Origin: Massilia atriviolacea
GTDB taxonomy: Bacteria; Pseudomonadota; Gammaproteobacteria; Burkholderiales; Burkholderiaceae_D
Direction: 5' to 3'
Length of the DNA: 64,000 nucleotides
NCBI RefSeq assembly: GCF_003953935.1
Contig: NZ_RXLQ01000013.1
Coordinates: forward strand, 62,001 to 126,000
The stretch's first letter is position 1. Each line of letters begins with the position of its first letter. This document shows positions 5,659 to 43,178 of this stretch, one piece after another. Made by a program: the position numbers and the translations under genes. The notes under the pieces are model-generated. The model saw only the letters and a program-made list of their open reading frames with translations, was not told the DNA's origin and did not search any database.

Positions 5659-5718
5659 TCGACGTGAAGGGGGCGCCCGCCAGGGCGCCGCGCAGGACGC
5701 CCTGCGCGGCGTTCGCGC

Positions 5719-6366
5719 TCAGCGCAGATTGGCCTGCGGCTTGTCCTTGAGTTCATTGACGGCCGCCAGGATCTCCGACTCGTTGTATCCGCCGAAGCGC
5801 CGGTATCCCACATACGTGAGCGGATAGCCGCTGCCCGCAAGCGAATTGTAGGCCATCAAGCCGGCTTCCGACTCCTCGACGTCGACATCCTCGAAGGGGA
5901 TGTTCTTTTCCTGGAACAATTCACGCTGCGCCTTGCAGTAGCCGCACCATTTGGTCCCGTACAACACGACCCTGGGCTTGTCCTGCTCGTCGAAATGAGC
6001 GGACAGGGCGATGCGCTCGCGCCGCGTCAGCGCATCCTTGCCCAGCACCTCGCCGAGCATGCCGGCCAGCTTGTGCACATCGTCGCCGACGGTGCGCTGC
6101 TTGCCGGCGATGACGGTCGGCATGGCGTTCACCCCGTATTTTCTGTCCGGCTCGCTCAGGATCACTTCCTGGAAGCCGATCACGCGCTTTTTCAGCTCGG
6201 TGCGGACCTTGTCGCACGGCTCGCCGCAGTCGGCGCTGGTAAACAGCATCACGGCCGGCTTGCCGTCCTTGTCGAAGGAGCCGCCGCCGTTGCCGCCGAG
6301 GCGGCCGGTTTTGTAGGCATACAGGGCGCCGCCGGCAACCAGGGCGAGGAAGAGAATTCGTTTCAT
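5719..6366 (-). CDS. Membrane-anchored or secreted tandem thioredoxin/glutaredoxin-like protein
   Basis: 215-residue redox protein. The N-terminus MKRILFLALVAGGALYAYKTG is a membrane anchor or uncleaved signal. A first thioredoxin-like half (residues about 35-105) has VMLFTSADCGEPCDKVRTELKKR, a degenerate CxxxC site, and a cis-Pro loop NAMPTVIAG. A second glutaredoxin-like half has LYGTKWCGYCKAQRELFQEKNIPFEDVDVE with the classical CGYC motif and a cis-Pro equivalent in SGYPLTYVG. Two fused glutaredoxin-type halves of this kind occur in Burkholderiales as glutaredoxin family proteins; the target is unknown. The start at 6366 was taken because the anchor begins there. It is followed on the same strand by nothing obviously related. 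Confidence 0.78.
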   Translation of the reverse strand: MKRILFLALVAGGALYAYKTGRLGGNGGGSFDKDGKPAVMLFTSADCGEPCDKVRTELKKRVIGFQEVILSEPDRKYGVNAMPTVIAGKQRTVGDDVHKLAGMLGEVLGKDALTRRERIALSAHFDEQDKPRVVLYGTKWCGYCKAQRELFQEKNIPFEDVDVEESEAGLMAYNSLAGSGYPLTYVGYRRFGGYNESEILAAVNELKDKPQANLR

Positions 6367-9159: not shown

Positions 9160-9792
9160 ATGCCAAATCCAAACCGGGGCGCCTGCGGCTTCCAATCCTC
9201 CGAGTTCGAACAAGAATACGAACGCCCTTCCAAGTCCGAACTCAAGCGCCAGATGAACGAGCTGCAAAAGCTCGGCGAAGAACTGGTCGCCGAAGCGCGC
9301 GACCGCGTCAAGCGCGTGCCGATGCCGGAAGACGTGCGCGACGCCATCCTGGCCTGCCAGCTGATCACCAACCACGAAGGGCGGCGCCGCCAGATGCAAT
9401 TCGTCGGCAAGAAGATGCGCACCCTCGACGAGGAAGAAGTGGCCGTCATCCAGCGCACCATCGACAGCTGGAAAGGCATGTCCAAGGCCGATACCGCCGC
9501 CCTGCACGCGCTCGAACGCCGCCGCGACAAGCTGCTGGCCGACGACAAGGCCCTGACCGTGTTGCTGGAAGAAAACCCGGAACTCGACGTGCAGCACCTG
9601 CGCACCCTGATCCGCAACGCGCGCAAGGAACAGGCCGAGAACAAGCCGCCCAAGGCTTACCGCGAGATCTTCCAGATCCTCAAGGATATCGACAAGAAGC
9701 GCAAGGCCGCCGCCAAGCCGGCCGGCCATGACGAAGACGGGGATCAGGACGAACACGGCGAGCTTATCGATGACGAGTCCGGCGACGCGTAA
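9160..9792 (+). CDS. darP: Ribosome-associated protein DarP (YjgA family)
   Basis: DUF615/YjgA family protein acting late in 50S subunit assembly, 210 residues. Conserved stretches are PSKSELKRQMNELQKLGEEL, RVPMPEDVRDAIL, NHEGRRRQMQFVGKKMR, and RTLIRNARKEQAENKPPKAYREIFQILK. The C-terminus is highly acidic (HDEDGDQDEHGELIDDE). The gene is divergent from pmbA, as in many proteobacteria, and its 3' end overlaps the mog start by 23 bases, so the two are co-transcribed. Confidence 0.94.
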   Translation: MPNPNRGACGFQSSEFEQEYERPSKSELKRQMNELQKLGEELVAEARDRVKRVPMPEDVRDAILACQLITNHEGRRRQMQFVGKKMRTLDEEEVAVIQRTIDSWKGMSKADTAALHALERRRDKLLADDKALTVLLEENPELDVQHLRTLIRNARKEQAENKPPKAYREIFQILKDIDKKRKAAAKPAGHDEDGDQDEHGELIDDESGDA

Positions 9793-10420
9793 TCCGGTGG
9801 CGCCGGCGCCCGGGCTGGTGATCGGCCTGGTCTCGGTCTCCGACCGCGCCAGCGGCGGCGTGTATGAAGACAAGGGCTTGCCGGCGCTGGCCGAGTGGCT
9901 GGCCGCCGCCCTCGCCACGCCCTACCGCATCGAAACGCGCCTGATTCCCGACGAACGCGCGCAGATCGAAGCGACCCTCACCGAGCTGGTCGACACGGCG
10001 CGCTGCCACCTGGTGCTCACCACCGGCGGCACCGGCCCGTCGCGGCGCGATGTCACGCCGGAAGCCACGCTCGCCATCGGCACCAAAGAAATGCCCGGCT
10101 TCGGCGAGCAGATGCGCCAGATCAGCCTGCGGTTCGTGCCGACCGCGATCCTGTCGCGCCAGACGGCGGTGATCCGCGAAATCGACGGCCACGCCGCGCT
10201 GGTGATGAACCTGCCGGGCCAGCCGAAAGCCATCAAAGAAACCCTCGAAGGCCTGAAAGACGCGGACGGCAAGCAACTGGTCGGCGGCATCTTCGCGGCC
10301 GTGCCCTACTGCGTCGACCTGATCGGCGGCCCCTACATGGAAACCAACCCGGCCGTGTGCAAGGCATTCCGGCCGAAATCGGCGCTGCGTCCCGCGCCCT
10401 CCACCGAGAACAACGCATGA
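9770..10420 (+). CDS. mog: Molybdopterin adenylyltransferase (MogA/MoaB family)
   Basis: Adenylylates molybdopterin with ATP, the step before molybdate insertion in molybdenum cofactor synthesis. 216 residues from ATG 9770. The diagnostic loop LTTGGTGPSRRDVTPEAT is present, preceded by GLVSVSDRASGGVYEDKG and followed by MPGFGEQMRQISLRFVPTAILSRQTAVIR and MNLPGQPKAIKE. ATG 9728 upstream in frame would give 14 extra residues that overlap darP further; the later start was chosen for sense of the N-terminus. Overlaps darP by 23 bases and the following esterase by 4 (ATGA), so translationally coupled. Confidence 0.92.
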   Translation: MTSPATRNPVAPAPGLVIGLVSVSDRASGGVYEDKGLPALAEWLAAALATPYRIETRLIPDERAQIEATLTELVDTARCHLVLTTGGTGPSRRDVTPEATLAIGTKEMPGFGEQMRQISLRFVPTAILSRQTAVIREIDGHAALVMNLPGQPKAIKETLEGLKDADGKQLVGGIFAAVPYCVDLIGGPYMETNPAVCKAFRPKSALRPAPSTENNA

Positions 10421-11085
10421 GCGAACTGTTAGAAAACATCGAAGTCGTCACCGCCCCGAACCCCACCGTGGCGATCATCTGGATGCACGGCCTGGGCGCC
10501 GACGGCAACGACTTCGTGCCGCTGGTCAATGAACTGGACCTGGCCGGCTTGCCCGGCATCCGTTTCGTCTTCCCGCATGCCAACACGATGCCGGTGACCA
10601 TCAACAACGGCTACGTGATGCGCTCGTGGTACGACATCGTCCACGCCGACCTCGGCCGCCGCGAAGACGAAGCCGGCCTGCGCGCCTCGCAATTGCAGGT
10701 CGAAGCGCTGATCGCGCGCGAAAAAGCGCGCGGCATTCCGGCCTCGCGCATCATCCTGGCGGGCTTTTCGCAGGGCTGCGCGATGACCTTGCAGACCGGC
10801 TTGCGCCATCCGGAAAGGCTGGCCGGCCTGATGTGCCTGTCCGGTTACGTGCCCCTGGCCGACAAGGTCGCCGCCGAGCGCTCGGAAGCGAGCCTGGGCA
10901 CGCCGGTGTTCATGGTGCACGGCCAGCACGACGGCGTGATTCCGATCGCCCGCGCCGCGGCGTCGCGCGACCTGCTCGCCTCGCTCGGTTACCAGGTCGA
11001 ATGGCACGATTACATGATGCAGCACTCGCTGTGCCAGGAAGAAATCGACCACATCGGCGCCTGGCTGAAAAAAGTCCTGGCCTGA
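10417..11085 (+). CDS. Alpha/beta-hydrolase, carboxylesterase/phospholipase family
   Basis: Serine carboxylesterase of the phospholipase/carboxylesterase family (Pseudomonas EstB type), 222 residues, cytoplasmic. The oxyanion region is TVAIIWMHGLGADGNDF; the nucleophile elbow is ILAGFSQGCAM (Ser in GFSQG); Asp is in MVHGQHDGVIPI; His is in YMMQHSLCQEEIDHIGAWL. All catalytic residues are present. Acts on short-chain esters; the natural substrate is unknown. It shares an ATGA overlap with mog. Confidence 0.92.
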   Translation: MSELLENIEVVTAPNPTVAIIWMHGLGADGNDFVPLVNELDLAGLPGIRFVFPHANTMPVTINNGYVMRSWYDIVHADLGRREDEAGLRASQLQVEALIAREKARGIPASRIILAGFSQGCAMTLQTGLRHPERLAGLMCLSGYVPLADKVAAERSEASLGTPVFMVHGQHDGVIPIARAAASRDLLASLGYQVEWHDYMMQHSLCQEEIDHIGAWLKKVLA

Positions 11086-11165
11086 TCCGGGAAGCGCGCC
11101 GGTGTAACTTGGGTCCGCCTGGCGCAGAGCGCGTAGAATGCGTTCTTTGATAGCAAAGGCAGACA

Positions 11166-11432
11166 ATGAAAAAAACCGGCTTGGCAAAGAGTGACGCCAA
11201 AAAATTGATGGGCAAGATGGTCGTCCCGGGCGGCGCCGGCTTCGGCACCGCCGCCAGCCCCGTCGTCGACCGCCGCGAGCAGCGCAAGCGCGACCAGGCA
11301 CTGGGCCTGGTTCCCTTCGCCGTGAAACTCAACAGCGAGCTGGTGTTGCAACTGCAAACCCTGGCCAGGGAACGCGACGCCGACCTCAATGCGCTCGTCG
11401 CCGAGCTGCTGGCCAAGGGCCTCGCGGCCTGA
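11166..11432 (+). CDS. Small hypothetical protein with possible ribbon-helix-helix C-terminus
   Basis: 88 residues, basic N-terminal half (MKKTGLAKSDAKKLMGKMV) with a low-complexity glycine/alanine linker, and a C-terminal half LVPFAVKLNSELVLQLQTLA followed by RERDADLNALVAELLAKGL, a strand plus two helices that resembles the Arc/MetJ ribbon-helix-helix pattern. I do not recognise a named family. The next gene starts nine bases after its stop, so they may be co-transcribed. Codon use looks like that of its neighbours, so it is probably a real gene. Confidence 0.65.
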   Translation: MKKTGLAKSDAKKLMGKMVVPGGAGFGTAASPVVDRREQRKRDQALGLVPFAVKLNSELVLQLQTLARERDADLNALVAELLAKGLAA

Positions 11433-11441
11433 CGACCCGGC

Positions 11442-12542
11442 ATGAAAACGGTCGTTCTCGGCGGATACGGTAACTTCGGCGCCCGCATCTGCCGTGCCCT
11501 GGCGCCCAGCCCGGGCATCGAGCTGATCGTTGCCGGGCGCAAGCTGGACAAGGCCAGCGCCCTGGCCCGCGCCTGCGGACACGGTGCCGGCGCCGCCCGC
11601 ATCGACATCCACGATCCCCAACTCGCACAAGCCCTGCGCGCCCTCGGCGCCGAACTGGTGATCCACACCGCCGGCCCCTTCCAGCAGCAGGATTACGGCA
11701 CCGCGCTGGCCACGGCCGCCGCCGGCGCCCACTACATCGACCTGGCCGACGGGCGCCGCTTCGTGTGCGACTTTCCGGCCGCGCTGGACCGGGCTTTCCG
11801 CCAGCACCAGCGCCTCGGCATCAGCGGCGCCAGCAGCGTGCCGGCCCTGTCCTCGGCCGTGGTCGACCACCTGACGGCGGGCTGGCGCAGCATCGACGCG
11901 ATCGAGATGTGCATCGCCCCGGCCCAGACCGCGCCGCGCGGGGTGGCGACCATGGAGGCGGTGCTGAGCTATTGCGGCGCGCCGGTCCAGGTCTGGCAGG
12001 ACGGCCGCTGGACCACCCAGCTCGGCTGGGCGGCGCCGACCACGGTCGCCTACGCGCGCCTGCGCCCGCGCCTGGCGTCGCTGTGCGACATTCCCGACCT
12101 CGAACTGTTTCCGGCCCACTATGCGGGCGTGAAGACCGTGATGTTCCGCGCCGCGCTGGAGACGGGCATCAGCCAGCGCGGCATGGCGGCGCTGGCGCTC
12201 TTGCGCCGGTTCGGGCTGCTGCGCCATCCGGAACGCTTCGCCGGCCTGCTCAACCGCGCCGCCGACGGCTTGAACTTCCTCGGCTCGGCGCTGGGCGGGA
12301 TGGTGGTGCGCGTGCGCGGCGTGGACGCCGCCGGCGCTCCCGCACAGCGCGCCTGGCATATCGCGGCCGACAACGACCATGGGCCGGAAATCCCGTGCAT
12401 GGCGGCCGTGCTGCTGGCGCGCCGGCTCGCTGCGGGCACGCTGAAGGCGGTCGGCGCGCATACCAGCGTCGGCCAGCTGACGCTGGCGCAGTTCGAACCG
12501 GAGTTCGCCAAGTGGGGCATGGTGACCGACCTCGGCGAGTGA
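11442..12542 (+). CDS. Saccharopine dehydrogenase-like NAD(P)-binding oxidoreductase
   Basis: 366-residue protein with an N-terminal Rossmann fold (MKTVVLGGYGNFGARICRAL, GxxGxxG motif) followed by VIHTAGPFQQQDYGTALA and CxxxGAHYIDLADGRRF-like regions typical of the saccharopine dehydrogenase NADP-binding family. The C-terminal part, with WHIAADNDHGPEIPCMAAVLLARRLA, resembles the uncharacterised short branch of this family rather than true lysine-pathway enzymes. Substrate unknown. It directly follows the small gene at 11166. Confidence 0.82.
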   Translation: MKTVVLGGYGNFGARICRALAPSPGIELIVAGRKLDKASALARACGHGAGAARIDIHDPQLAQALRALGAELVIHTAGPFQQQDYGTALATAAAGAHYIDLADGRRFVCDFPAALDRAFRQHQRLGISGASSVPALSSAVVDHLTAGWRSIDAIEMCIAPAQTAPRGVATMEAVLSYCGAPVQVWQDGRWTTQLGWAAPTTVAYARLRPRLASLCDIPDLELFPAHYAGVKTVMFRAALETGISQRGMAALALLRRFGLLRHPERFAGLLNRAADGLNFLGSALGGMVVRVRGVDAAGAPAQRAWHIAADNDHGPEIPCMAAVLLARRLAAGTLKAVGAHTSVGQLTLAQFEPEFAKWGMVTDLGE

Positions 12543-35067: not shown

Positions 35068-36678
35068 ATGACCTCAACACTTTCACGCCGCGGTTTCCTC
35101 ACGCGCGGCGGCATCATCGCCGGCGGCACGGCGCTCAATGGTTCGCTGCTGCTGTCGGCCTGCGGCGGTTCGGATTCGCCCGCCCCGTCCATCGTCCCGA
35201 GCGAGGCCGAACGGCCCAAGCTGCCGTCGGGGATCCAGTTCGGCGACGTGACCGGCGAGCGCGCCGTGATCTGGAGCCGCAGCGACCGCAATGCGCAGAT
35301 GATCGTCGAATACGACACCAGCGAACGCTTTACCAACGCCAGCCGCATTGTCGGCCCCTACGCCACCGAGGCCAGCGACTTCACCTCGCGCGTCGACCTG
35401 TCGGGACTGCCGGCCGGCCAGACCGTGTTCGTGCGCGTCAAGTACATCGACCCGGCCAACGGCCGCATCGAGAGCGAAGCGGTGTCGGGCCAGTTCCGCA
35501 CCATGCCGCAGGCCGACGGCAAGCGCGCCATCCGCTTCCACTGGAGCGGCGACCAGGCCGGCCAGGGCTGGGGCATCAACACCGATTTCGGCGGCGTGCG
35601 CATGTACGAGTCGATGCGCAAGCGCGATCCGGATTTCTTCATCCATAACGGCGACACCGTCTACGCCGACGGCCCGATCGCGGCCGAAGCGAAAGCCGAA
35701 AACGGCCAGATCTGGAAAAGCATCGTGACCGAAGAAGTGAGCAAGGTCGCCGAAACGCTCAAGGAATTCCGCGGCCGCCATGCGTACAACACGCTCGACC
35801 TGAACTTCCGCAAATTCGCGGCCCAGGTGCCGCAGCTCTGGCAGTGGGACGACCACGAGGTGACCAACAACTACAGCGGCGCCAAGGACCTGTCGGCCGA
35901 TGCGCGCTACAAGGAAAAGAACGTCGCCACCCTGGCCGAACGGGGCCGCCGCGCCTTCCTCGAATACGCGCCGATGCGCTTCTACAAACAGGCCGAACCC
36001 CAGCGCATCTACCGCAGCATCGGCTACGGCCCGCTGCTGGACGTGTTCGTGATCGACATGCGCAGCTACCGTGGTCCTAACAGCGCCAACCTGCAGACCG
36101 AGGAAAATACCAGCTCGGCGCTCCTTGGCTCGGCCCAGGTGGACTGGCTGATCGCCGAACTCAATGCCTCGAAGGCCACCTGGAAGGTCATCTCCTCGGA
36201 CATGCCGATCGGGCTGGAAGTGGCCGACGGCAAGGACGCCAAGGGCGTGGCGATGTGGGAAGCCGTCGCCAATGGCGTGAGCGGTCCGGCCTCGGGTCGC
36301 GAACTGGAAATGGCGCGCCTGCTCAAGGGGATCAAGAACGTGCCGAACGTGGTCTGGATCACCACCGACGTGCATTACTGCGCGGCGCACTTTTACGACC
36401 CGGCCAAGGCGCACTTCACCGACTTCGCGCCGTTCTGGGAATTCGTGGCCGGCCCGATGAATGCCGGCTCCTTCGGTCCTGGCAAACTGGATATGACCTT
36501 CGGCCCGACCGAGGTCTTTGCCAAGGCGCCGCCGGTGCAGAACTCCTCGCCGTTCGCCGGCTACCAGTTCTTCGGCGAGGTCAACATCGACCCCCTATCG
36601 AAAGCGATGAAGGTCGACCTGCTGGACCTGAACGGCGTGACGCAGTTCAGCAAGACGCTGCCGGCGGCCGGCGTCTAG
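35068..36678 (+). CDS. phoD: Alkaline phosphatase D (PhoD-like)
   Basis: 536 residues. A Tat signal (SRRGFLTRGGIIAGG) runs into a lipobox-like LLSACGG, so it is exported folded and possibly lipid-anchored. The PhoD N-terminal beta domain (IQFGDVTGERAVIWSRSDR) precedes the calcium/iron phosphoesterase core: HWSGDQAG, FFIHNGDTVYADGP, WQWDDHEVTNNYSG, FVIDMRSYRGPN and VWITTDVHYCAAHFYDP, which carry Asp, Asn and His metal ligands. Hydrolyses phosphate mono- and diesters in the periplasm. Its stop overlaps the convergent ABC gene in CTAG. It may be Pho-regulated, but no clear Pho box was found. Confidence 0.93.
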   Translation: MTSTLSRRGFLTRGGIIAGGTALNGSLLLSACGGSDSPAPSIVPSEAERPKLPSGIQFGDVTGERAVIWSRSDRNAQMIVEYDTSERFTNASRIVGPYATEASDFTSRVDLSGLPAGQTVFVRVKYIDPANGRIESEAVSGQFRTMPQADGKRAIRFHWSGDQAGQGWGINTDFGGVRMYESMRKRDPDFFIHNGDTVYADGPIAAEAKAENGQIWKSIVTEEVSKVAETLKEFRGRHAYNTLDLNFRKFAAQVPQLWQWDDHEVTNNYSGAKDLSADARYKEKNVATLAERGRRAFLEYAPMRFYKQAEPQRIYRSIGYGPLLDVFVIDMRSYRGPNSANLQTEENTSSALLGSAQVDWLIAELNASKATWKVISSDMPIGLEVADGKDAKGVAMWEAVANGVSGPASGRELEMARLLKGIKNVPNVVWITTDVHYCAAHFYDPAKAHFTDFAPFWEFVAGPMNAGSFGPGKLDMTFGPTEVFAKAPPVQNSSPFAGYQFFGEVNIDPLSKAMKVDLLDLNGVTQFSKTLPAAGV

Positions 36679-38432
36679 GCCGCTGCCGGCGCGGCGGCGC
36701 GTGCCAGCTGGTGGCGCATCAGGTGGAAGTACAAGCCCTCCTGCTGCGCCACCAGTTGCGCGTGGGTGCCGTGCTGCGCCAGGCGGCCCTGTTCCAGCAC
36801 CAGGATGCGGTCGGCCTTGACGATGGTGGAAAAGCGGTGCGCGATGATGATCGTGGTGCGCCCCTGCATCAGGGTGTCGAGCGCGCGCTGCACCTGCAGT
36901 TCGCTGGCCGAATCGAGCGCGCTGGTCGCTTCGTCGAGGATCAGGATGCGCGGGTCGCGCAGCAGCGCGCGGGCAATCGCGATGCGCTGTTTCTGCCCGC
37001 CCGAGAGCTGCGCGCCGCGCTCGCCGACCACGGTATCGTAACCATCCGGGAAGGCGCTGATGAAATCGTGGGCGTAGGCCAGGGCGGCGGCGGCCTTGAC
37101 TTCGTCCAGCGTCACCTCGCGTTCGGCCACGGCGAACGCGATGTTCTCGAATATGCTGCCCGAGAACAGCGAGGGCTCCTGCTCCACGATCGCCAGCTTG
37201 CTGCGGATGGCGGCCAGCGGCATGGCGGCGGCGTCGACGCCGTCGAACAGGATGCGGCCGCTGTCGGGCCGGTAGAAGCCCAGGATCAGGCTCGCGATGG
37301 TGGACTTGCCGGCGCCGGACGCGCCGACCAGCGCGATGGTGTCGCCGGCGGCGATGGAAAAATCGATCTTGTTCAAGGCTGGCGCGTCAGGCCGTTCCGG
37401 ATACGCAAACGCCACGTCCTCGAAGGCCAGCCTGCCCTGCAGGCCTGCCTCGCCGGCCGGCGCTTCCTGTGCGCGTTCGGTGTTGATGACCTTGAAAATC
37501 CATTCGGTGGCGCCGATGGTGCGCATCCACGCGTTCCAGAATTCGCCGATGGCCCCCGCCGCTTCGGTCACCATGCTGGCATACAGGATGAAGGCGGTCA
37601 GGTCGCCCACCGTCATCTGGCCCTGCCCGATCAGGCGTGCGCCGAACCACAAGGTGCCCAGCAGCGCCAGGTACACGAGGAAGGACGAGCCGCCGCGAAA
37701 CAGCGCAAACAGCGCACTGCTCGACACCGACAGCGACAGCGCGTGTTCGGTGGCGCCGGCATAGCGTGCGCGCGCGGTGCGCTGCTGGCTGAAGGCGTGC
37801 ACCAGGCGGATGTTCGAAAAATGCTCCTGCGCGACCTTGCCGCATTCGGCCTGGCCGTCCTGCATCAGGCTCGCTCGCTTGCGGTACACCTTGCCCGTCA
37901 TTTTGCCGATGAACAGGGTGGCCGGCAAAAAGATCACCAGCATCAGGCTGAGCACCGGCGAAATCGTCAGCAGCATCACCACCCCGCCAATGAACACGCA
38001 CAGGCAGCGCAGCGACACCGCCATGCCCATGGTCAGCGTGTCGTGCAGGATTTCGACATCGGCCGTGAGGCGGTTATTCAGTTCGCCGACGTGGTGCTTG
38101 TCGTAGAAGCGGATCGGCTGCTCGATCAGCGCCGCGTACAACTGGCGCCGGATGCGGGTGACGATCATGTAGCCGGTCGACTCGAAAATATAATAGCGCG
38201 CCGTGGCGGCCACCGCCTGCAGCGCCAGCACCGCCAGCATGGTCAGGGCCAGTGAGCTGAACCACGCCATGTCCTTGCGCACGTTGATGTTATCGATGAA
38301 GTACGACAGCGCCTTCGGGTAGGCCAGCTGGATCAGCACCGTGACCGCCATGCACACCAGGCCCGCGCCCAAGCGCCAGGCGAAGGGGCGCAGCAGGCGC
38401 AGGCGGTCGAGGTGGGGCGACGGCCGGCTCAC
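36675..38432 (-). CDS. ABC exporter, MsbA/LapB-type, of the RiPP cluster
   Basis: 585 residues from GTG 38432, overlapping the MauD-like gene by four bases (GTGA). An N-terminal six-helix membrane domain (FAWRLGAGLVCMAVTVLIQL, MAWFSSLALTMLAVLALQAV, and others) precedes a nucleotide-binding domain with Walker A (ALVGASGAGKST), Q-loop, signature AQLSGGQKQRIAIARALL and Walker B ILILDEATSAL. It is a homodimeric type IV exporter without a C39 peptidase domain. As last gene of the RiPP unit it probably exports the mature peptide, with the leader removed elsewhere. It could instead be a lipid or drug exporter; gene order makes a peptide role more likely. Confidence 0.92.
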   Translation of the reverse strand: MSRPSPHLDRLRLLRPFAWRLGAGLVCMAVTVLIQLAYPKALSYFIDNINVRKDMAWFSSLALTMLAVLALQAVAATARYYIFESTGYMIVTRIRRQLYAALIEQPIRFYDKHHVGELNNRLTADVEILHDTLTMGMAVSLRCLCVFIGGVVMLLTISPVLSLMLVIFLPATLFIGKMTGKVYRKRASLMQDGQAECGKVAQEHFSNIRLVHAFSQQRTARARYAGATEHALSLSVSSSALFALFRGGSSFLVYLALLGTLWFGARLIGQGQMTVGDLTAFILYASMVTEAAGAIGEFWNAWMRTIGATEWIFKVINTERAQEAPAGEAGLQGRLAFEDVAFAYPERPDAPALNKIDFSIAAGDTIALVGASGAGKSTIASLILGFYRPDSGRILFDGVDAAAMPLAAIRSKLAIVEQEPSLFSGSIFENIAFAVAEREVTLDEVKAAAALAYAHDFISAFPDGYDTVVGERGAQLSGGQKQRIAIARALLRDPRILILDEATSALDSASELQVQRALDTLMQGRTTIIIAHRFSTIVKADRILVLEQGRLAQHGTHAQLVAQQEGLYFHLMRHQLARAAAPAAA

Positions 38433-38995
38433 GCGCTGGCCTCGTGCGCCATCTGCACCTCGTCCATCTGTTCGCAGAAGCTGCGCCAGTCCTCGTCGCC
38501 GATCATGCCGCGCGCGTCCAGCGTGCCGTCCTGGCTGACGAACAGGTACGAGGGCGACGACATGAGCGGGTTGAGCATCTCGTACTCGGCTGCCGCCACG
38601 CGCACGGCATGGGCGTCCAGCGCCGTCGCTTGCAGGAAGCGGCGCAGGCGCCAGCCCGGTTCGACGCTGACCAGCCAGAGCGCCACGCCGGCCTGCTGCG
38701 CCAGCGGCGCCAGGCGCGCGATCTCGGGCAGCTTGTGGCGGCACTTGGGACAGGCGCTGGACAGGAACAGCAGCACCGCCGGCTGGCCATCGCCGCCCAC
38801 CGTGAGCGGCGCGCCGCCGACGAGAGATTTACCGGTGAAGGCGCCGACTTCCTCGCCCAGCGGCAGGATCGATGCCGCCTTCGCCGCCGCGCTCAGGCTG
38901 GCGACAACCTTTAACAGATGCAGCGACAGCGTGAGATTGAGCGCCACGCTCAGGGCCAGCAGCAGCAGGATGACGGCCAGGACGTCGCTATCCAT
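38429..38995 (-). CDS. MauD-like membrane-anchored thioredoxin
   Basis: 188 residues. A single N-terminal helix (VLAVILLLLALSVALNLTLSL) anchors a periplasmic thioredoxin-fold domain, with LLFLSSACPKCRHKLPEIARL (CPKC redox site), WLVSVEP and the cis-Pro loop SSPSYLFVSQDGTLDARGMI. This layout matches MauD, which together with MauE forms disulfides in methylamine dehydrogenase. Here the MauE partner is encoded directly upstream (1-base overlap), and the two cysteines of the precursor peptides are the likely target. No mau structural genes exist in the window. Confidence 0.85.
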   Translation of the reverse strand: MDSDVLAVILLLLALSVALNLTLSLHLLKVVASLSAAAKAASILPLGEEVGAFTGKSLVGGAPLTVGGDGQPAVLLFLSSACPKCRHKLPEIARLAPLAQQAGVALWLVSVEPGWRLRRFLQATALDAHAVRVAAAEYEMLNPLMSSPSYLFVSQDGTLDARGMIGDEDWRSFCEQMDEVQMAHEASA

Positions 38996-39516
38996 CAGGC
39001 GCTCCGTTTCAGGGCGCGCGCGAGATCGTGAAAGCCGATGGCGCCGATGGTGGCGATCAGCGCCAGCGCGGCGGCCAGCACGCTGTCTTTCCTGCCGAAG
39101 GCGGCGCCGCCGGAGAACGCGAGGCAGACGCCGATACTGGCGATGACCAGGCCATTGCGCAGCAGATCGTAGCCCGATACCGGCCGTTCGCTCTCGCCGA
39201 AGCAGCTGCATTTGACGCTGCCTTCGACCACGTAGCGATAGCCGACCAGCGCCGTCAGCGCCACGAACAGCACCAGGGCGGCGCCCATGCCGAGGCGCCC
39301 GACGGCGCCGCCGGCGAGAATCAGGGCTGCCAGCAGCGCCTCCAGCGCCACCACGGCCGGCGCGACGACGGCCGCCGCCCGCCGCGGTACGCCGAAGGAC
39401 TCGGCCAGGTTGTGCGAAAACGCGGCCAGCGTGCGCAATTTGCCGAATGCGGCGCAGGCCAGCAGGAACGCGGTGAAATAGCGGATGATCTCCGCAAGGT
39501 AGGCCGGCGCGCTCAT
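38995..39516 (-). CDS. MauE/DoxX-like membrane protein
   Basis: 173 residues with about four or five transmembrane helices. IIRYFTAFLLACAAFGKLRTLAAF at the N-terminus and the loop YVVEGSVKCSCFGESERPVSGYDLLRNG are typical of MauE/DoxX (the paired cysteines CSC sit in the periplasmic loop next to the quinone-type helix bundle). MauE is thought to reoxidise MauD, like DsbB. It overlaps the preceding Clp-fold gene by four bases. Confidence 0.85.
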   Translation of the reverse strand: MSAPAYLAEIIRYFTAFLLACAAFGKLRTLAAFSHNLAESFGVPRRAAAVVAPAVVALEALLAALILAGGAVGRLGMGAALVLFVALTALVGYRYVVEGSVKCSCFGESERPVSGYDLLRNGLVIASIGVCLAFSGGAAFGRKDSVLAAALALIATIGAIGFHDLARALKRSA

Positions 39517-40397
39517 ACGGCCAGCTTGCCCCAGCGCGGCAGGAAGCCGCCGCTGCGGTGTTCGCGCAGCATGCCGCCGTCGCGCGTGGCCAGCAGCACA
39601 TCGTTCCACGGGGCGTCGGCCGATTCGCGCAGGCCGCCGCCGACGATCGTTTGCAGCACGCGCGACATGCGCCAGGCGCACTCCTCGACTTCCGGCTCGC
39701 GCCGGATGCGCAGGCCCAGTCTGGCCATCTCCTCGCGGGTGAGCGCGTAATTGTGCGAGTAGTAGCCGAACATCAGCTCCTTGACCACGTCCTGGCGAAC
39801 GCTCTCGGGTTTGTCGGGCATCTGGAAGCGCAGCAGTTCTTCGCCGATCCGCATCACTTCCTGGGTGGTGCGGTAGAACGCGGTGAGGGTCGGCGGGAAG
39901 ATGCTGTTGCACAGGAGGCCCAGCGACTGCAAGCGCGCCTCGTCGGAGCTGATGCCGAACCATTCCTCGCTCATGGCGCCGAACATCTTGATGTCCTGGC
40001 ACGAGAACGACGAGGCTGGGCTGTCTTCATCGGTGCCGCCATGCAGGTGCGGGTCGATCGGCGAAAACATGGCCAGGTCGCCGGCGATGATTTCATCGGC
40101 GGCCAGCGCCAGGATGGTGGCCGAGGACTCGCACTGATAGGGCACGATGAAGGCCAGGCGCTCGCTGAACTGGCGCAGCAGCAGCGCGATGCGGCGCGCC
40201 GCGTTGACGATGCCGCCACGGCATTGCAGCACCACGTCCAGGCGCGGCACGCGGCCGATGGCGCGGCACTGTTCATACAGGGCCGGCAGGATCTCCATGT
40301 CCAGGTTCGAGGCGGCGAAGACCAGCACGCGGCTGTCGCGCAGCGCTTCGATCTCCTTGATCTGCTCGCGCACGGGAAAACGGTGTGACTGCGTCAT
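39513..40397 (-). CDS. Clp-fold serine protease (SDH_sah/SppA-like), candidate leader peptidase
   Basis: 294 residues; ATG at 40397 (GAGGAGTGCGC upstream), overlapping the ATP-grasp gene by four bases. The ClpP/crotonase fold is seen in LVFAASNLDMEILPALYEQC, RLDVVLQCRGGIVNAARRIALLL (oxyanion Gly-Gly) and FIVPYQCESSATILALAADEIIAGDLAMFSPIDPHL, where the Ser after Glu-Ser is the probable nucleophile, as in the serine dehydrogenase proteinase family (pfam01972). No signal peptide, so cytoplasmic or peripheral. In this operon it is the best candidate to cut the leader from the modified peptides; the role is inference. The gene name is not known to me. Confidence 0.82.
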   Translation of the reverse strand: MTQSHRFPVREQIKEIEALRDSRVLVFAASNLDMEILPALYEQCRAIGRVPRLDVVLQCRGGIVNAARRIALLLRQFSERLAFIVPYQCESSATILALAADEIIAGDLAMFSPIDPHLHGGTDEDSPASSFSCQDIKMFGAMSEEWFGISSDEARLQSLGLLCNSIFPPTLTAFYRTTQEVMRIGEELLRFQMPDKPESVRQDVVKELMFGYYSHNYALTREEMARLGLRIRREPEVEECAWRMSRVLQTIVGGGLRESADAPWNDVLLATRDGGMLREHRSGGFLPRWGKLAV

Positions 40398-41392
40398 GCG
40401 CACTCCTCAATGAGTCGGCCGGCCAGCGCGTCGAGCATGGCGAAGGCGGGAATCAACTGCTCGATGTAGAGAAACTGGCCGACCGGATTATTTTCCAGGA
40501 AAACCACGTCGTCGTCCGGCGTGACGATCAGGTCCAGCGCGCTGTAGGCCAGGCCGTAGCTGCGCACGAAGGCCAGGCAGCGCTCGCGCAGCGCATCCGG
40601 CAGCACGGTCGCCTCGTACAGGATATCGGCCGACATGTCGCGCGAATCGATGGCGGTGCGTTCGTCGTCCTGCGAGTGGATCTTGGCCGCGAACACGCGC
40701 TCGCCGATGATCGTCACGCGCAGTTCGTACTGCTTGGGGATGTACTGCTGAAAATGGCAGGCCAGTTCGGCCACCGACGCCAGGTTCTCCAGCATGGCGT
40801 CGTCGACCAGGGTGGTGCCGATGCCGTTGGCCACGCGGTCCTCGTCGGCCAGGTCTTCGCCGCCCAGGTTGGGGCTGGAGAGGGCCTTGAAGATCATGGG
40901 GCCGTCGAAGCTGGCGCGAAAGGCGCTCACCTCGGCCGGCGAATTGGTGGTCAGCGAAGCGGGAATGCGAAAGCCCATGCGCGCGGCGCGCTGCAACTGC
41001 TCGCCCTTCCACATGGCGCCGCGCAGGGCCAGCGGATGGCTCATCCAGAAGCAGTCGAGCGTATAAAGCATGCCGAACAGCGCCTGCTCCGTCTCTCCCC
41101 TGGCGTAGGCACGTTCCTGGACGCCCAGGTCGGGGCTGAGAAAACTGAATTCGGCCGGCTTGCGGCTCCAGATCGCGCCCACGTCGGCCAGGTCGAGCGT
41201 GTCGCCCGAGGGCAGGTGGCGGATCGACTGGCGCAGGCTGCCGGCGGCGAACCATTGCGAGCTCTGGTAATCGCGCGGAAAGGCGTCCAGGTCGATGCGG
41301 AAGGCCGCGCAGCCCTTGGCCTGCAGGATGGGGATCAGGAGGTCGACATGCAGGTCGGCGCTGTTACTGACAATCAGAACCTTTTTCGCCAT
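40394..41392 (-). CDS. MvdD-like ATP-grasp peptide ligase (graspetide maturase)
   Basis: 332 residues from ATG 41392. It belongs to the MvdC/MvdD family, which links Ser/Thr or Lys side chains to Asp/Glu in a precursor peptide by ester or amide bonds using ATP. Landmarks: N-terminal VLIVSNSADLHVDLLIPILQ, leader-side DVGAIWSRKPAEFSF and ETEQALFGMLY, and the ATP-grasp fold with PMIFKALSSPNLGGED, QQYIPKQYELRVTIIGERVFAAKIHSQ and VFLENNPVGQFLYIEQLIP (metal-binding Glu and Asn). The ribosome site is weak (no AGGAG), and an intrinsic terminator lies upstream after the first precursor gene, so it may be made in small amounts through read-through. Two adjacent precursor genes make it a maturation enzyme with high probability. 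Confidence 0.9.
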   Translation of the reverse strand: MAKKVLIVSNSADLHVDLLIPILQAKGCAAFRIDLDAFPRDYQSSQWFAAGSLRQSIRHLPSGDTLDLADVGAIWSRKPAEFSFLSPDLGVQERAYARGETEQALFGMLYTLDCFWMSHPLALRGAMWKGEQLQRAARMGFRIPASLTTNSPAEVSAFRASFDGPMIFKALSSPNLGGEDLADEDRVANGIGTTLVDDAMLENLASVAELACHFQQYIPKQYELRVTIIGERVFAAKIHSQDDERTAIDSRDMSADILYEATVLPDALRERCLAFVRSYGLAYSALDLIVTPDDDVVFLENNPVGQFLYIEQLIPAFAMLDALAGRLIEECA

Positions 41393-41413
41393 AAGCCAGT
41401 TGGAAGAGGTCGG

Positions 41414-41442
41414 AAAAAAAGCCCTGCCCGACGAGCAGGGCT
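41414..41442 (-). terminator. Intrinsic terminator/attenuator between precursor 1 and the ATP-grasp gene
   Basis: On the minus strand AGCCCTGC pairs perfectly with GCAGGGCT over a seven-base loop, followed directly by a run of seven T. It begins 17 bases after the precursor stop and ends 21 bases before the ATP-grasp start. Confidence 0.85.
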
Positions 41443-41459
41443 GCCTGGGTGTCAGCCGA

Positions 41460-41636
41460 TCAGCACCACACGCCCAGATCGTGGCCCCAGTAACCGTCGG
41501 CGCGATGCTCTTCGCCGGAGCAGCCGGCGCTGGCGACGCCGTCGCGCAGTTTCCATTGCGGCGCCGGGTTGGCTTGCTTTTCCTTTTTTTCTGCGAGTTT
41601 GAAGGCAAACAGCTTGGTGTTCTCTTGCTTTTCCAT
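41460..41636 (-). CDS. RiPP precursor peptide 1 (58 residues)
   Basis: 58 residues starting MEKQENTKLFAFKLAEKKEK and ending HDLGVWC. Leader (about 1-25) and core (about 26-58) are predicted. Compared with the second precursor at 41728, the leader FAFKLAEKK, the PAPQW box, the AGCSG box and the final G-(V/I)-(W/Y)-C are conserved; the middle of the core varies. Cysteines at positions 39 and 58 are invariant. Ser (36, 40) and Asp/Glu in the core could be linked by the ATP-grasp enzyme. No microviridin-type PFFARFL leader motif and no TxKYPSD core motif, so it is not a microviridin. Start 41636 agrees with precursor 2 in length; an in-frame ATG at 41705 is unlikely since it overlaps a terminator. 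Confidence 0.85.
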   Translation of the reverse strand: MEKQENTKLFAFKLAEKKEKQANPAPQWKLRDGVASAGCSGEEHRADGYWGHDLGVWC

Positions 41637-41681
41637 GGACCGGTCTTTCAAAAAAGTGAAGTCGACGACAGTGGCGGGGAT

Positions 41682-41709
41682 AAAAAAAAGCCCTGCGATA
41701 CGCAAGGCT
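41682..41709 (-). terminator. Intrinsic terminator between precursors 2 and 1
   Basis: On the minus strand AGCCTTGC pairs with GCAGGGCT (one wobble pair), then a run of eight T. It lies 18 bases after the stop of precursor 2, the same arrangement as after precursor 1. Confidence 0.83.
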
Positions 41710-41727
41710 TTTTATCCGGTGAATCGG

Positions 41728-41904
41728 TCAGCAGTAGATGCCGTTGTCGCGGCCTGGGCGGCGGTCGCCGCGCGCATCAGGACCGGAGCAGCCGGCAGTG
41801 GAAACGCCTTCGCGTGCTTGCCACTGTGGTGCGGGTTTGACTTCCTTGGTTTTTTTCTCGGCCAGCTTGAACGCGAACGTTTTCATTCCATTTTGATTTT
41901 TCAT
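41728..41904 (-). CDS. RiPP precursor peptide 2 (58 residues)
   Basis: Too short for usual gene finders: 58 residues, MKNQNGMKTFAFKLAEKKTK at the start and GRDNGIYC at the end, read on the minus strand. It has the same length as precursor 1, with conserved leader FAFKLAEKK, PAPQW, GV-x-x-AGCSG and terminal Cys. The core has Ser/Thr (35, 36, 40) and Asp (43, 47, 53) that could form ester links, and Cys 39 and 58. Upstream sequence (GAAAGATACGGAA) resembles that of precursor 1 (GAAAGACCGGTCC). It is the first gene after the promoter, so probably the most strongly expressed. Confidence 0.85.
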   Translation of the reverse strand: MKNQNGMKTFAFKLAEKKTKEVKPAPQWQAREGVSTAGCSGPDARGDRRPGRDNGIYC

Positions 41905-41969
41905 TTCCGTATCTTTCTAAAAAATAGCGAAATTCAATCCAACGGTGTACCGCTTGTAGCGGCAAGGAA

Positions 41970-41998
41970 ATCCTATTCCGATGACAAACTTGCGTCAA
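41970..41998 (-). promoter_or_regulatory. Promoter of the RiPP operon
   Basis: On the minus strand TTGACG (41998-41993) and TAGGAT (41975-41970) are separated by exactly 17 bp, about 65 bases before the start of precursor 2, in the AT-rich stretch between precursor 2 and the glycosylase gene. A good sigma-70-type promoter. Confidence 0.7.
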
Positions 41999-42096
41999 GA
42001 TAAAAATTATTCTTTGCTTAATGCATATCGCATTGACGCAGGTCAGCAAGATTCCAGGCACCAATCCCGCCCTGCGATGCGAACGCCTGGAGGCGG

Positions 42097-42651
42097 CTAC
42101 GCCAGGTCGCTCGCAAGGGGCCGCGCATGATCGCGCAATGTGCGCCATACCAGCATCTTTTCCGCATACGGCGCCGTGTACGCCGGACTGCTCGACGGCA
42201 AGTTCACGATGCGATAGCGCTGCGCCAGCCCGCCCAGCGCCTTCACGCCCAGCCGCGCCGCCGTGCCGCCATTGAAGGCAATCGTCGCCAGCTGCGGCAA
42301 GCTCTCGACCAGCCCCGCCAGGTCGTTGCCGACCTGGCCGCGAATCTGACTGTCCAGGCTGCCTTCGCGGCGGGCTTCGGCCACCACATCCCACAGGCCG
42401 ATACCGTGCGCCAGCAGCGCCGCCAGGCGCGCCTCGTAATCGAGCGCCACCAGGTCGGCGCCGGTCACTTCCGACATCAAGGCCCAGAAACGGTTCTGGC
42501 GATGGCCGTAGTACTGCTGCTGCGCAAGCGAGCGCTCGCCCGGCAGGCTGCCGAGCACCAGGATGCGCGTGCGGACGTCGACCACCGGCGCAAAACAGCG
42601 CTTGAGCTGCGGCGCATCCGGGTCGGCATCGGCGGGCTGGAAATGGTTCAT
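42097..42651 (-). CDS. DNA-deoxyinosine glycosylase (uracil-DNA glycosylase superfamily)
   Basis: 184 residues. Family landmarks: RILVLGSLPGERSLAQQQYYGHRQNRFW (quoted in parts: LGSLPGERS, YYGHRQNRFW), GIGLWDVVAEARREGSLD, IAFNGGTAA and LPSSSPAYTAPYAEK. It removes hypoxanthine, the deamination product of adenine, from DNA (hypoxanthine-DNA glycosylase subgroup). Start ATG 42651. Its stop is about 100 bases beyond the RiPP promoter, so transcription from this gene could run into the RiPP cluster. Confidence 0.9.
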   Translation of the reverse strand: MNHFQPADADPDAPQLKRCFAPVVDVRTRILVLGSLPGERSLAQQQYYGHRQNRFWALMSEVTGADLVALDYEARLAALLAHGIGLWDVVAEARREGSLDSQIRGQVGNDLAGLVESLPQLATIAFNGGTAARLGVKALGGLAQRYRIVNLPSSSPAYTAPYAEKMLVWRTLRDHARPLASDLA

Positions 42652-42731
42652 GGCAGCGATTCTAGCAGCCCCCAGGACAGGTGTAGAATCGTCTGGCAAG
42701 CCAATCACGACAACAAAATCCGGAGACTCCC

Positions 42732-43178
42732 ATGGACCAAGCATCGGCGCCGCGCGCCATCGATACCTTGCTCGCCAAATACAGCGAAAGCCACCTGAAC
42801 CACACCAACGAGTTGATTCACTTTGTCTGCGTGCCGGTGATCGTGTTTACCCTGCTCGGCATTATCTGGTGGATCCACCCGTTCGCCGCCGTGGCCGTCA
42901 CCGTGCTGTCGCTGTGCTATTACTTCCAGCTATCGAAACCCTTCGCGCTCGGCATGCTGGCCATGTCGGCGGCGATGCTCGGCCTGCTCAGCCTGATGCC
43001 GCCGGCCGCCGTGCTGCCATTGTCGCTGGCCATCTTCGTGCTGGCCTGGATCGGGCAATTTATCGGCCACAAGATCGAGGGTAAAAAGCCATCGTTCTTC
43101 GAGGACCTGCGTTTTCTGCTGATCGGCCCGCTGTTCGTGCTGAGCTTCCTGTACCGGCGCCTGAATCTGTCCTGGTAG
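42732..43178 (+). CDS. Mpo1-like DUF962 membrane protein
   Basis: 148 residues with about four membrane helices. The conserved N-terminal AKYSESHLNHTNELIHFVCVP (His pair) and the inner HKIEGKKPSFFEDLRFLLIGP (His, Glu) are the DUF962 signature. Yeast Mpo1 is an iron-dependent dioxygenase of 2-hydroxy fatty acids in membranes; the same residues are present here, so lipid alpha-oxidation is possible but not proven in bacteria. Confidence 0.88.
   Translation: MDQASAPRAIDTLLAKYSESHLNHTNELIHFVCVPVIVFTLLGIIWWIHPFAAVAVTVLSLCYYFQLSKPFALGMLAMSAAMLGLLSLMPPAAVLPLSLAIFVLAWIGQFIGHKIEGKKPSFFEDLRFLLIGPLFVLSFLYRRLNLSW

Follow-up and report, generated by a model that had tools for sequence, protein, structure and literature searches.

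A graspetide-type gene cluster of Massilia atriviolacea with a proposed ester and disulfide around a hypervariable loop

We analysed a 64,000-nucleotide stretch of the Massilia atriviolacea genome (NCBI RefSeq assembly GCF_003953935.1, contig NZ_RXLQ01000013.1, positions 62,001 to 126,000 of the forward strand), called here the window, and focused on seven minus-strand genes running from 41904 to 36675. These encode two precursor peptides, an ATP-grasp ligase, an SDH protease, a MauE protein, a MauD-like redoxin and an ATP-binding cassette (ABC) exporter, and they very probably form a graspetide-type cluster for a ribosomally synthesised and post-translationally modified peptide (RiPP). The gene set, its conservation and the single clade of its ligases were observed directly. 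We slightly favour a full scheme with two linkages, in which one omega-ester joins Ser40 to Asp53 and one disulfide joins Cys39 to Cys58. The genes are as follows.

41728..41904, minus strand: precursor peptide 1, 58 residues, with a FAF leader (residues 10-12), Trp28, Gly38-Cys39-Ser40, Asp53 and the terminal Cys58
41460..41636, minus strand: precursor peptide 2, 58 residues, with the invariant residues positioned as in precursor 1
40394..41392, minus strand: MvdD-like ATP-grasp peptide ligase, 332 residues, matching PF21068
39513..40397, minus strand: SDH/ClpP-fold serine protease and candidate leader peptidase, 294 residues, matching PF01972, with conserved Gly61-Gly62, Ser91, Asp115 and His215
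38995..39516, minus strand: MauE-family membrane protein, 173 residues, matching PF07291, with Cys103-x-Cys105
38429..38995, minus strand: MauD-like/TlpA-like membrane-anchored redoxin, 188 residues, matching PF00578, with Cys82-x-x-Cys85
36675..38432, minus strand: ABC exporter, 585 residues, GTG start, with membrane and ATPase domains and no peptidase domain matched

An earlier reading of this DNA from its letters alone (the sequence-only reading) had described seven genes on one strand with two homologous 58-residue precursors, and all of them were recovered at their places. It had also described overlaps of 1-4 bases throughout. This description held from the ATP-grasp gene onwards, where the four junctions as far as the ABC gene overlap by 4, 4, 1 and 4 bases, and failed for the precursors, where gaps of 91 bases (precursor 1 to precursor 2) and 67 bases (precursor 2 to the ligase gene) were found.

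The scan of the genome_contigs collection revealed 23 related loci with ligase identities of 45-92%, spanning beta-, gamma- and alphaproteobacteria (Massilia, Janthinobacterium, Pseudoduganella, Bowmanella, Lysobacter, another Lysobacteraceae, Phenylobacterium, Brevundimonas, Hellea, Altererythrobacter, Pseudoalteromonas and an alphaproteobacterium). Precursor homologues lay directly upstream of the ligase in 23/23 of these loci, and the adjacency of precursor and ligase therefore exceeds chance. The sequence-only reading had named homologous ligases without neighbouring precursors as one finding that would count against it; precursors accompanied every one, and together with matches to graspetide ligases of known structure this supported its view of a graspetide-like RiPP cluster. 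The SDH protease, MauE, MauD and ABC genes were all present in 20/23 loci, and two of the incomplete loci (L021 and L022) ran off short contigs. In five alphaproteobacterial loci (L026, L027, L028, L030 and L032) some genes were divergent or relocated, suggesting that the gene set is retained while its order is free. Four further loci (L071-L074) all carried the complete set. Pairwise identities of the five proteins across 17 non-redundant loci correlated at 0.91-0.98, values that still include shared species history.

The ligase matched the MvdD pre-ATP-grasp domain PF21068 over its gathering cut-off (2.9e-12). Its best NCBIfam match was the TgmB-like model TIGR04187 (3e-62), at 210.6 of 350 bits and thus under the curated cut-off, and it likewise fell under the microviridin cut-offs of TIGR04184/TIGR04185 (MvdD, 196.5 of 475 bits; MvdC, 144.6 of 425 bits). 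A profile of 24 family ligases searched against the PDB aligned over nearly the full length with CdnC (7MGV, 8e-65) and with the ATP-grasp ligase 5IG9 (5.7e-62), so that, judged by sequence, graspetide-type ATP-grasp ligases appear to be the closest solved relatives of the family. In a maximum-likelihood tree of 33 ligases, midpoint-rooted and with long branches for several outgroups, 17 family members fell on one side of a branch with support of 100/97. A Deinococcus ligase (L079) was the nearest neighbour of the family (98/91), and both the MvdC/MvdD group (100/99) and TgmB were separate from it. PF14398, the YheC/D ATP-grasp family, had no match in the own genome.

The precursors were collected as 150 copies representing 77 distinct sequences, many of the copies being one genome that carries several locus names. 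Within this set, which was gathered with a profile of the same family, the FAF leader, a Trp at one position, Gly-Cys-(Ser/Thr) and an Asp-x4-Cys(-Ala) ending were each invariant (77/77). Ala directly preceded Gly-Cys in 74/77, the ending took the form Asp-x-Gly-x-x-Cys(-Ala) in 76/77, and Cys numbered two in 70 precursors and three in 7. Between the invariant Ser/Thr and Asp stood a loop of 10-25 residues with 60 distinct sequences among the 77, compared with 41 distinct versions of the 13-residue frame before it; this variability suggests a scaffold tolerant of change. Each of the 23 loci carried 1-4 precursors, and the range overall was 1-10. The largest array (L071, about 9444-11662, minus strand) consists of ten tandem precursor genes ahead of one ligase; the three precursors of the set that end in Cys-Ala instead of Cys all come from it. 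Lys occurred after the first Cys in merely 9/77, so an amide linkage cannot be general. The carboxylate of the C-terminal Cys was also considered as ligase substrate, a reading weakened because 3/77 precursors end in Cys-Ala.

A scan of 47 of the precursors against Pfam and NCBIfam revealed no family above chance level. Small open reading frames (ORFs) with the leader motif outside the 77-precursor set yielded nine matches, none of them precursor-like. By analogy, FAF would act as the leader, with the PFFARFL motif described in PMC8939145 as the precedent. With regard to the graspetide leader motif Phhx(1,2)h, which PMC8939145 gives as present in about half of precursors, the aromatic FAF was invariant, but Pro stood ahead of it in just 2/77.

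The protease gene product matched the SDH protease family PF01972 (3.3e-15, 56.3 bits against a cut-off of 31.3). In the alignment, Gly61, Gly62, Ser91 and Asp115 were present in 23/23 rows and His215 in all 22 rows that reach that far, and Ser91, Asp115 and His215 with Gly61-62 are predicted to form the catalytic site. A crude hydropathy scan revealed no membrane segment. The cluster protease was the only protein of its own genome over the PF01972 cut-off, and a housekeeping duplicate was accordingly not supported there. MauE matched PF07291 (5.7e-22, 78.8 bits against a cut-off of 27) and had four hydrophobic segments; Cys-x-Cys-Phe, extended as Cys-x-Cys-Phe-Gly, was found in 21/22 rows, the odd row being a spurious fragment of a cut locus. 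The redoxin exceeded the cut-off of PF00578 (AhpC-TSA, 9.8e-07) and fell under that of the MauD equivalog TIGR02661 (27.8 of 188.6 bits); by these matches it is best called MauD-like and would be a thioredoxin-fold protein. It had one N-terminal hydrophobic segment and Cys-x-x-Cys in 21/21 rows. In the exporter, PF00664 and PF00005 (ABC_membrane and ABC_tran) were the sole domains over the Pfam cut-off, and the Pfam scan matched no C39 (double-glycine) peptidase domain.

From these features we infer the linked residues, the cleavage site, the order of the steps and the direction of the redox pair. The ATP-grasp enzyme would bind the N-terminal FAFKLA leader, activate the side chain of Asp53 and join it to the hydroxyl of Ser/Thr40, giving one omega-ester and a loss of 18 Da. 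In the cytoplasm, the SDH/ClpP-fold protease would then cut off the leader, with the cut falling ahead of Trp28 or else between Gly38 and Cys39, a role assigned to it because the exporter lacks a peptidase domain. After export by this peptidase-less ABC protein, the MauE/MauD-like pair would oxidise Cys39 and Cys58 to a disulfide in the periplasm (-2 Da). MauE may form disulfides according to PMC7794033, which cites methylamine dehydrogenase work. The product would be a bicyclic peptide in which a conserved frame and tail surround the hypervariable loop of 10-25 residues. That it acts as a bacteriocin-like or signalling peptide after secretion is no more than a guess.

Several observations weigh against this scheme. 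A single ring of such variable size from one ligase is unusual among graspetides. In L020, precursors and ligase were followed by a different gene on the opposite strand, which we take to be hisS, and the available 3.6 kb showed none of the partners. A repeat precursor of another graspetide-type locus (genome G336) contains two Cys, yet neither MauE nor MauD was matched within the stretch fetched; the association of the Cys pair with the redox pair thus holds in the family, but a Cys pair is not confined to it. Reduction instead of oxidation is also conceivable for a TlpA/ResA-like redoxin. Asp/Glu at position 32 (64/77) and Ser/Thr at positions 35 (15/77) and 36 (23/77) make other linkages possible, and the protease could serve immunity, as PMC13097080 proposes for proteases near some groups.

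The linkages could differ if the ligase made one or more esters with loop residues or Asp/Glu32, with the invariant Ser/Thr and Asp serving recognition or folding and with cleavage and export unchanged. This is rather unlikely but carries real weight: two or more acids follow the first Cys in 76/77 precursors and two or more Ser/Thr in 61/77, and graspetide synthetases often make several rings (PMC8939145). Against it, no alternative residue is invariant over the 77 precursors. In 16/77, no Ser/Thr besides the invariant one follows the first Cys, and in 1/77 no acid besides the invariant Asp does, which favours the Ser40-Asp53 ester. At position 32, 13/77 precursors have Lys, Gln, Ala, Ser, Asn or Val, which weakens Asp/Glu32 as a general ester acid; neither it nor Ser/Thr at 35 or 36 is invariant, so these residues are possible but not general partners. 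A further route would use the Cys39 thiol as nucleophile, with a thioester to Asp53, cleavage between Gly38 and Cys39, and a shift to the new N-terminal amine to give a macrolactam. Cys39 and Asp53 are indeed invariant, and the small Ala-Gly pair before Cys39 could be a cleavage site, but this route leaves the invariant Ser/Thr40, the invariant second Cys and the MauE/MauD pair unexplained. To our knowledge no graspetide synthetase employs Cys, and we consider the route highly improbable. The residues ahead of Cys39 resemble a lipobox in many copies, around Val-Ala-Gly-Cys, and the precursors could accordingly be read as lipoproteins. This was rejected on hydropathy as having next to no chance: no hydrophobic segment was present, and over the 77 precursors the 12-residue Kyte-Doolittle mean in the 25 residues ahead of Cys reached at most 0.75, with a median of -0.25.

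The other doubt concerns the protease, which might be an immunity or turnover factor, the leader being removed by a housekeeping protease. For proteins near some graspetide groups, PMC13097080 proposes self-resistance, including 'a serine proteinase' for group 9, and in microviridins it is the AplP homologue NosP that cuts the leader (PMC13039773), so leader peptidases of graspetides can belong to other families. The protease gene, however, directly follows the ligase gene in most loci and is present in all 20 full loci, and the lack of an obvious duplicate among PF01972 members of the own genome speaks in the same direction. We judge an immunity or turnover role unlikely and retain the SDH protease as the candidate leader peptidase.

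We compared the cluster with 13 other graspetide-type loci, in which no SDH protease, MauE or MauD was matched at 1e-4 in the 6-13 kb fetched per locus. In L077, a match to the MauE model (12.9 bits, E 1.3e-4) 5.3 kb upstream of the ligase lay just past this limit and was taken as chance. Seven likely precursors from such other graspetide-type loci, picked by eye, contained no Cys (G160, G184, Deinococcus and Nostoc), one Cys (Croceicoccus and TgmA) or two (G336). The protease and redox module thus set the family apart in this comparison, and precursor Cys alone does not. The G336 and G184 loci (L076 and L077) are of a multi-core type, with long precursors that carry several LxTKTxxxxExDDD-like repeats before a ligase.

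Among known systems, the microviridin type (MvdC/MvdD; MdnC, CdnC) shares with the cluster the MvdD-like pre-ATP-grasp domain, ligase similarity over the full length and a short precursor that adjoins the ligase and has an aromatic motif conserved in its leader. It differs in that the cluster ligase forms a separate clade under the MvdD/MvdC cut-offs, one ligase stands here instead of two, and the cluster precursors lack the microviridin core; the Nostoc microviridin locus that was fetched showed neither the Cys pair nor the SDH protease and MauE/MauD of the cluster. The actinobacterial TgmB/TIGR04187 synthetases provided the best NCBIfam match, but the cluster ligase lies under their cut-off and on a separate branch, and TgmA, which is unrelated in sequence, contains a single Cys and has a methyltransferase as its neighbour. 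On a Deinococcus wulumuqiensis plasmid (L079, NZ_CP031163.1), the ligase nearest to the family shares 37.7% identity over 88% of the query. At 5672-5887, upstream of this ligase, lies a 71-residue ORF that starts MKNLFAF, so with an FAF leader, and has a Thr/Asp-rich, Cys-free, unrelated core; no SDH, MauE or MauD match was found in 12.9 kb, and the ORF and ligase are likely a further graspetide type.

Published descriptions offered partial parallels. More than half of the members of graspetide group 9 are said to have a serine proteinase (PMC13097080), a likeness by description, as the text gives neither the protease family nor the sequences. The family might coincide with a numbered, uncharacterised published group, and the group 9 sentence of PMC13097080 could concern it; as described in PMC8939145, the group 9 motif belongs to precursor cluster 2, with ligases called actinobacterial, which speaks against identity with our family. 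Among the decRiPPter candidates of PMC7794033, mauE (in one case also mauD) adjoins candidate precursors that contain Cys, with a proposed disulfide role, but these candidates come from Streptomyces and their precursors have at least 8 Cys; the ATP-grasp candidates of that study are described as having no direct similarity to graspetide ligases. Stryphnines, ester-bearing sponge knottins (PMC13418204), combine disulfides with one side-chain ester, Ser before Glu; they are presented as animal knottins with a knotted disulfide core, and not as products of a bacterial gene cluster of this kind.

Tentatively, and a little short of an even call, the family can be read as a graspetide class of its own: an ATP-grasp omega-ester, together with a dedicated disulfide made in the periplasm by the MauE/MauD-like pair, would close a scaffold with a hypervariable loop, and an SDH ClpP-fold protease would remove the leader. 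Novelty was judged against the openly licensed PMC literature; Table 1 of PMC8939145, on common graspetide partners, includes no SDH protease, MauE or redoxin. Such a class would amount to a library of doubly stapled loops diversified in nature, with 1-10 precursors at each locus and 60 loops among 77 precursors. If the scheme is right, a small bacterial peptide system combines side-chain ester and enzymatic disulfide chemistry, and the known roles of SDH/ClpP-fold proteases and of MauE/MauD-like proteins extend to RiPP maturation. In 2022, PMC8939145 described the removal of graspetide leaders as unknown; a later report (PMC13039773) names NosP for class I microviridins, and the present locus adds a leader-peptidase candidate from another family. 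Thanks to its invariant residues, the chemistry of the cluster can be tested directly.

We also assessed the distribution of the cluster with the precursor profile, scoring at most 15-21 first-look candidates per genome, so that the counts are lower bounds. Matches were found in at least 7/17 sampled genomes of the genus and at least 24/294 of the family (at least 5/44 genera), and in at least 1/360 of the class and at least 1/398 of the phylum, each time in the own genome. The ligase profile matched 7 of the 398 phylum genomes at 1e-20, and at family level only the own genome (587.6 bits against at most 220.5). No relative was confirmed in the viral_contigs collection, and viral carriage was unsupported. 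In the plasmid collection, 75 records had a ligase match, all below 60% identity; the surroundings of nine of these showed no SDH, MauE or MauD match at 1e-4.

Within the genus (G000-G016), the seven cluster-bearing genomes measured 7.4-7.8 Mb and the ten cluster-less ones 4.5-6.3 Mb, two of the latter being incomplete (48% and 81%); a single lineage within the genus may thus be what the cluster marks. Neither the cluster nor the adjoining gene, which we take by eye to be phoD-like, was found in five cluster-less congener regions. In one cluster-less region (L104), the flanking genes, named by eye as hydrolase-like and uracil-glycosylase-like, stand 60 bases apart where the window holds the phoD-like gene and the cluster, indicating that these two are present or absent together here. 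The uracil-glycosylase-like gene (window 42097-42744) has counterparts in G002, G008 and G016 that match in two pieces, pointing to a frameshift or to an N-terminus that differs there.

Two possible expression signals were noted in the cluster region, and no Rfam RNA element reached the gathering threshold in 36500-42800.

41970..41998, minus strand: sigma-70-like promoter (TTGACG-17-TAGGAT), 5' of precursor 1, by consensus match
41420..41442, minus strand: terminator-like hairpin of 10 pairs with a T-run, between the precursors and the ligase gene

Promoter-like sites numbered 2 in the region against 0.7 expected from shuffles, and terminator-like sites 4 against 4.1, no excess over chance; the hairpin at 41420..41442 was the longest. 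A clear hairpin with a T-run was present in the interval between precursor and ligase in 18/24 loci, the window included, in a by-hand count with no shuffled control; L020 and L028 had none, and in L021, L022, L026 and L031 it was weak or irregular. The hairpin could possibly reduce expression of the enzymes relative to the precursors.

Separately, the Pedobacter plasmid NZ_MN657144.1 (L112, 2165-5891) carries a graspetide-type ATP-grasp gene directly ahead of a small ORF and of genes for a lasso peptide B2 protein and an asparagine synthase-related protein, possibly a natural graspetide/lasso neighbourhood.

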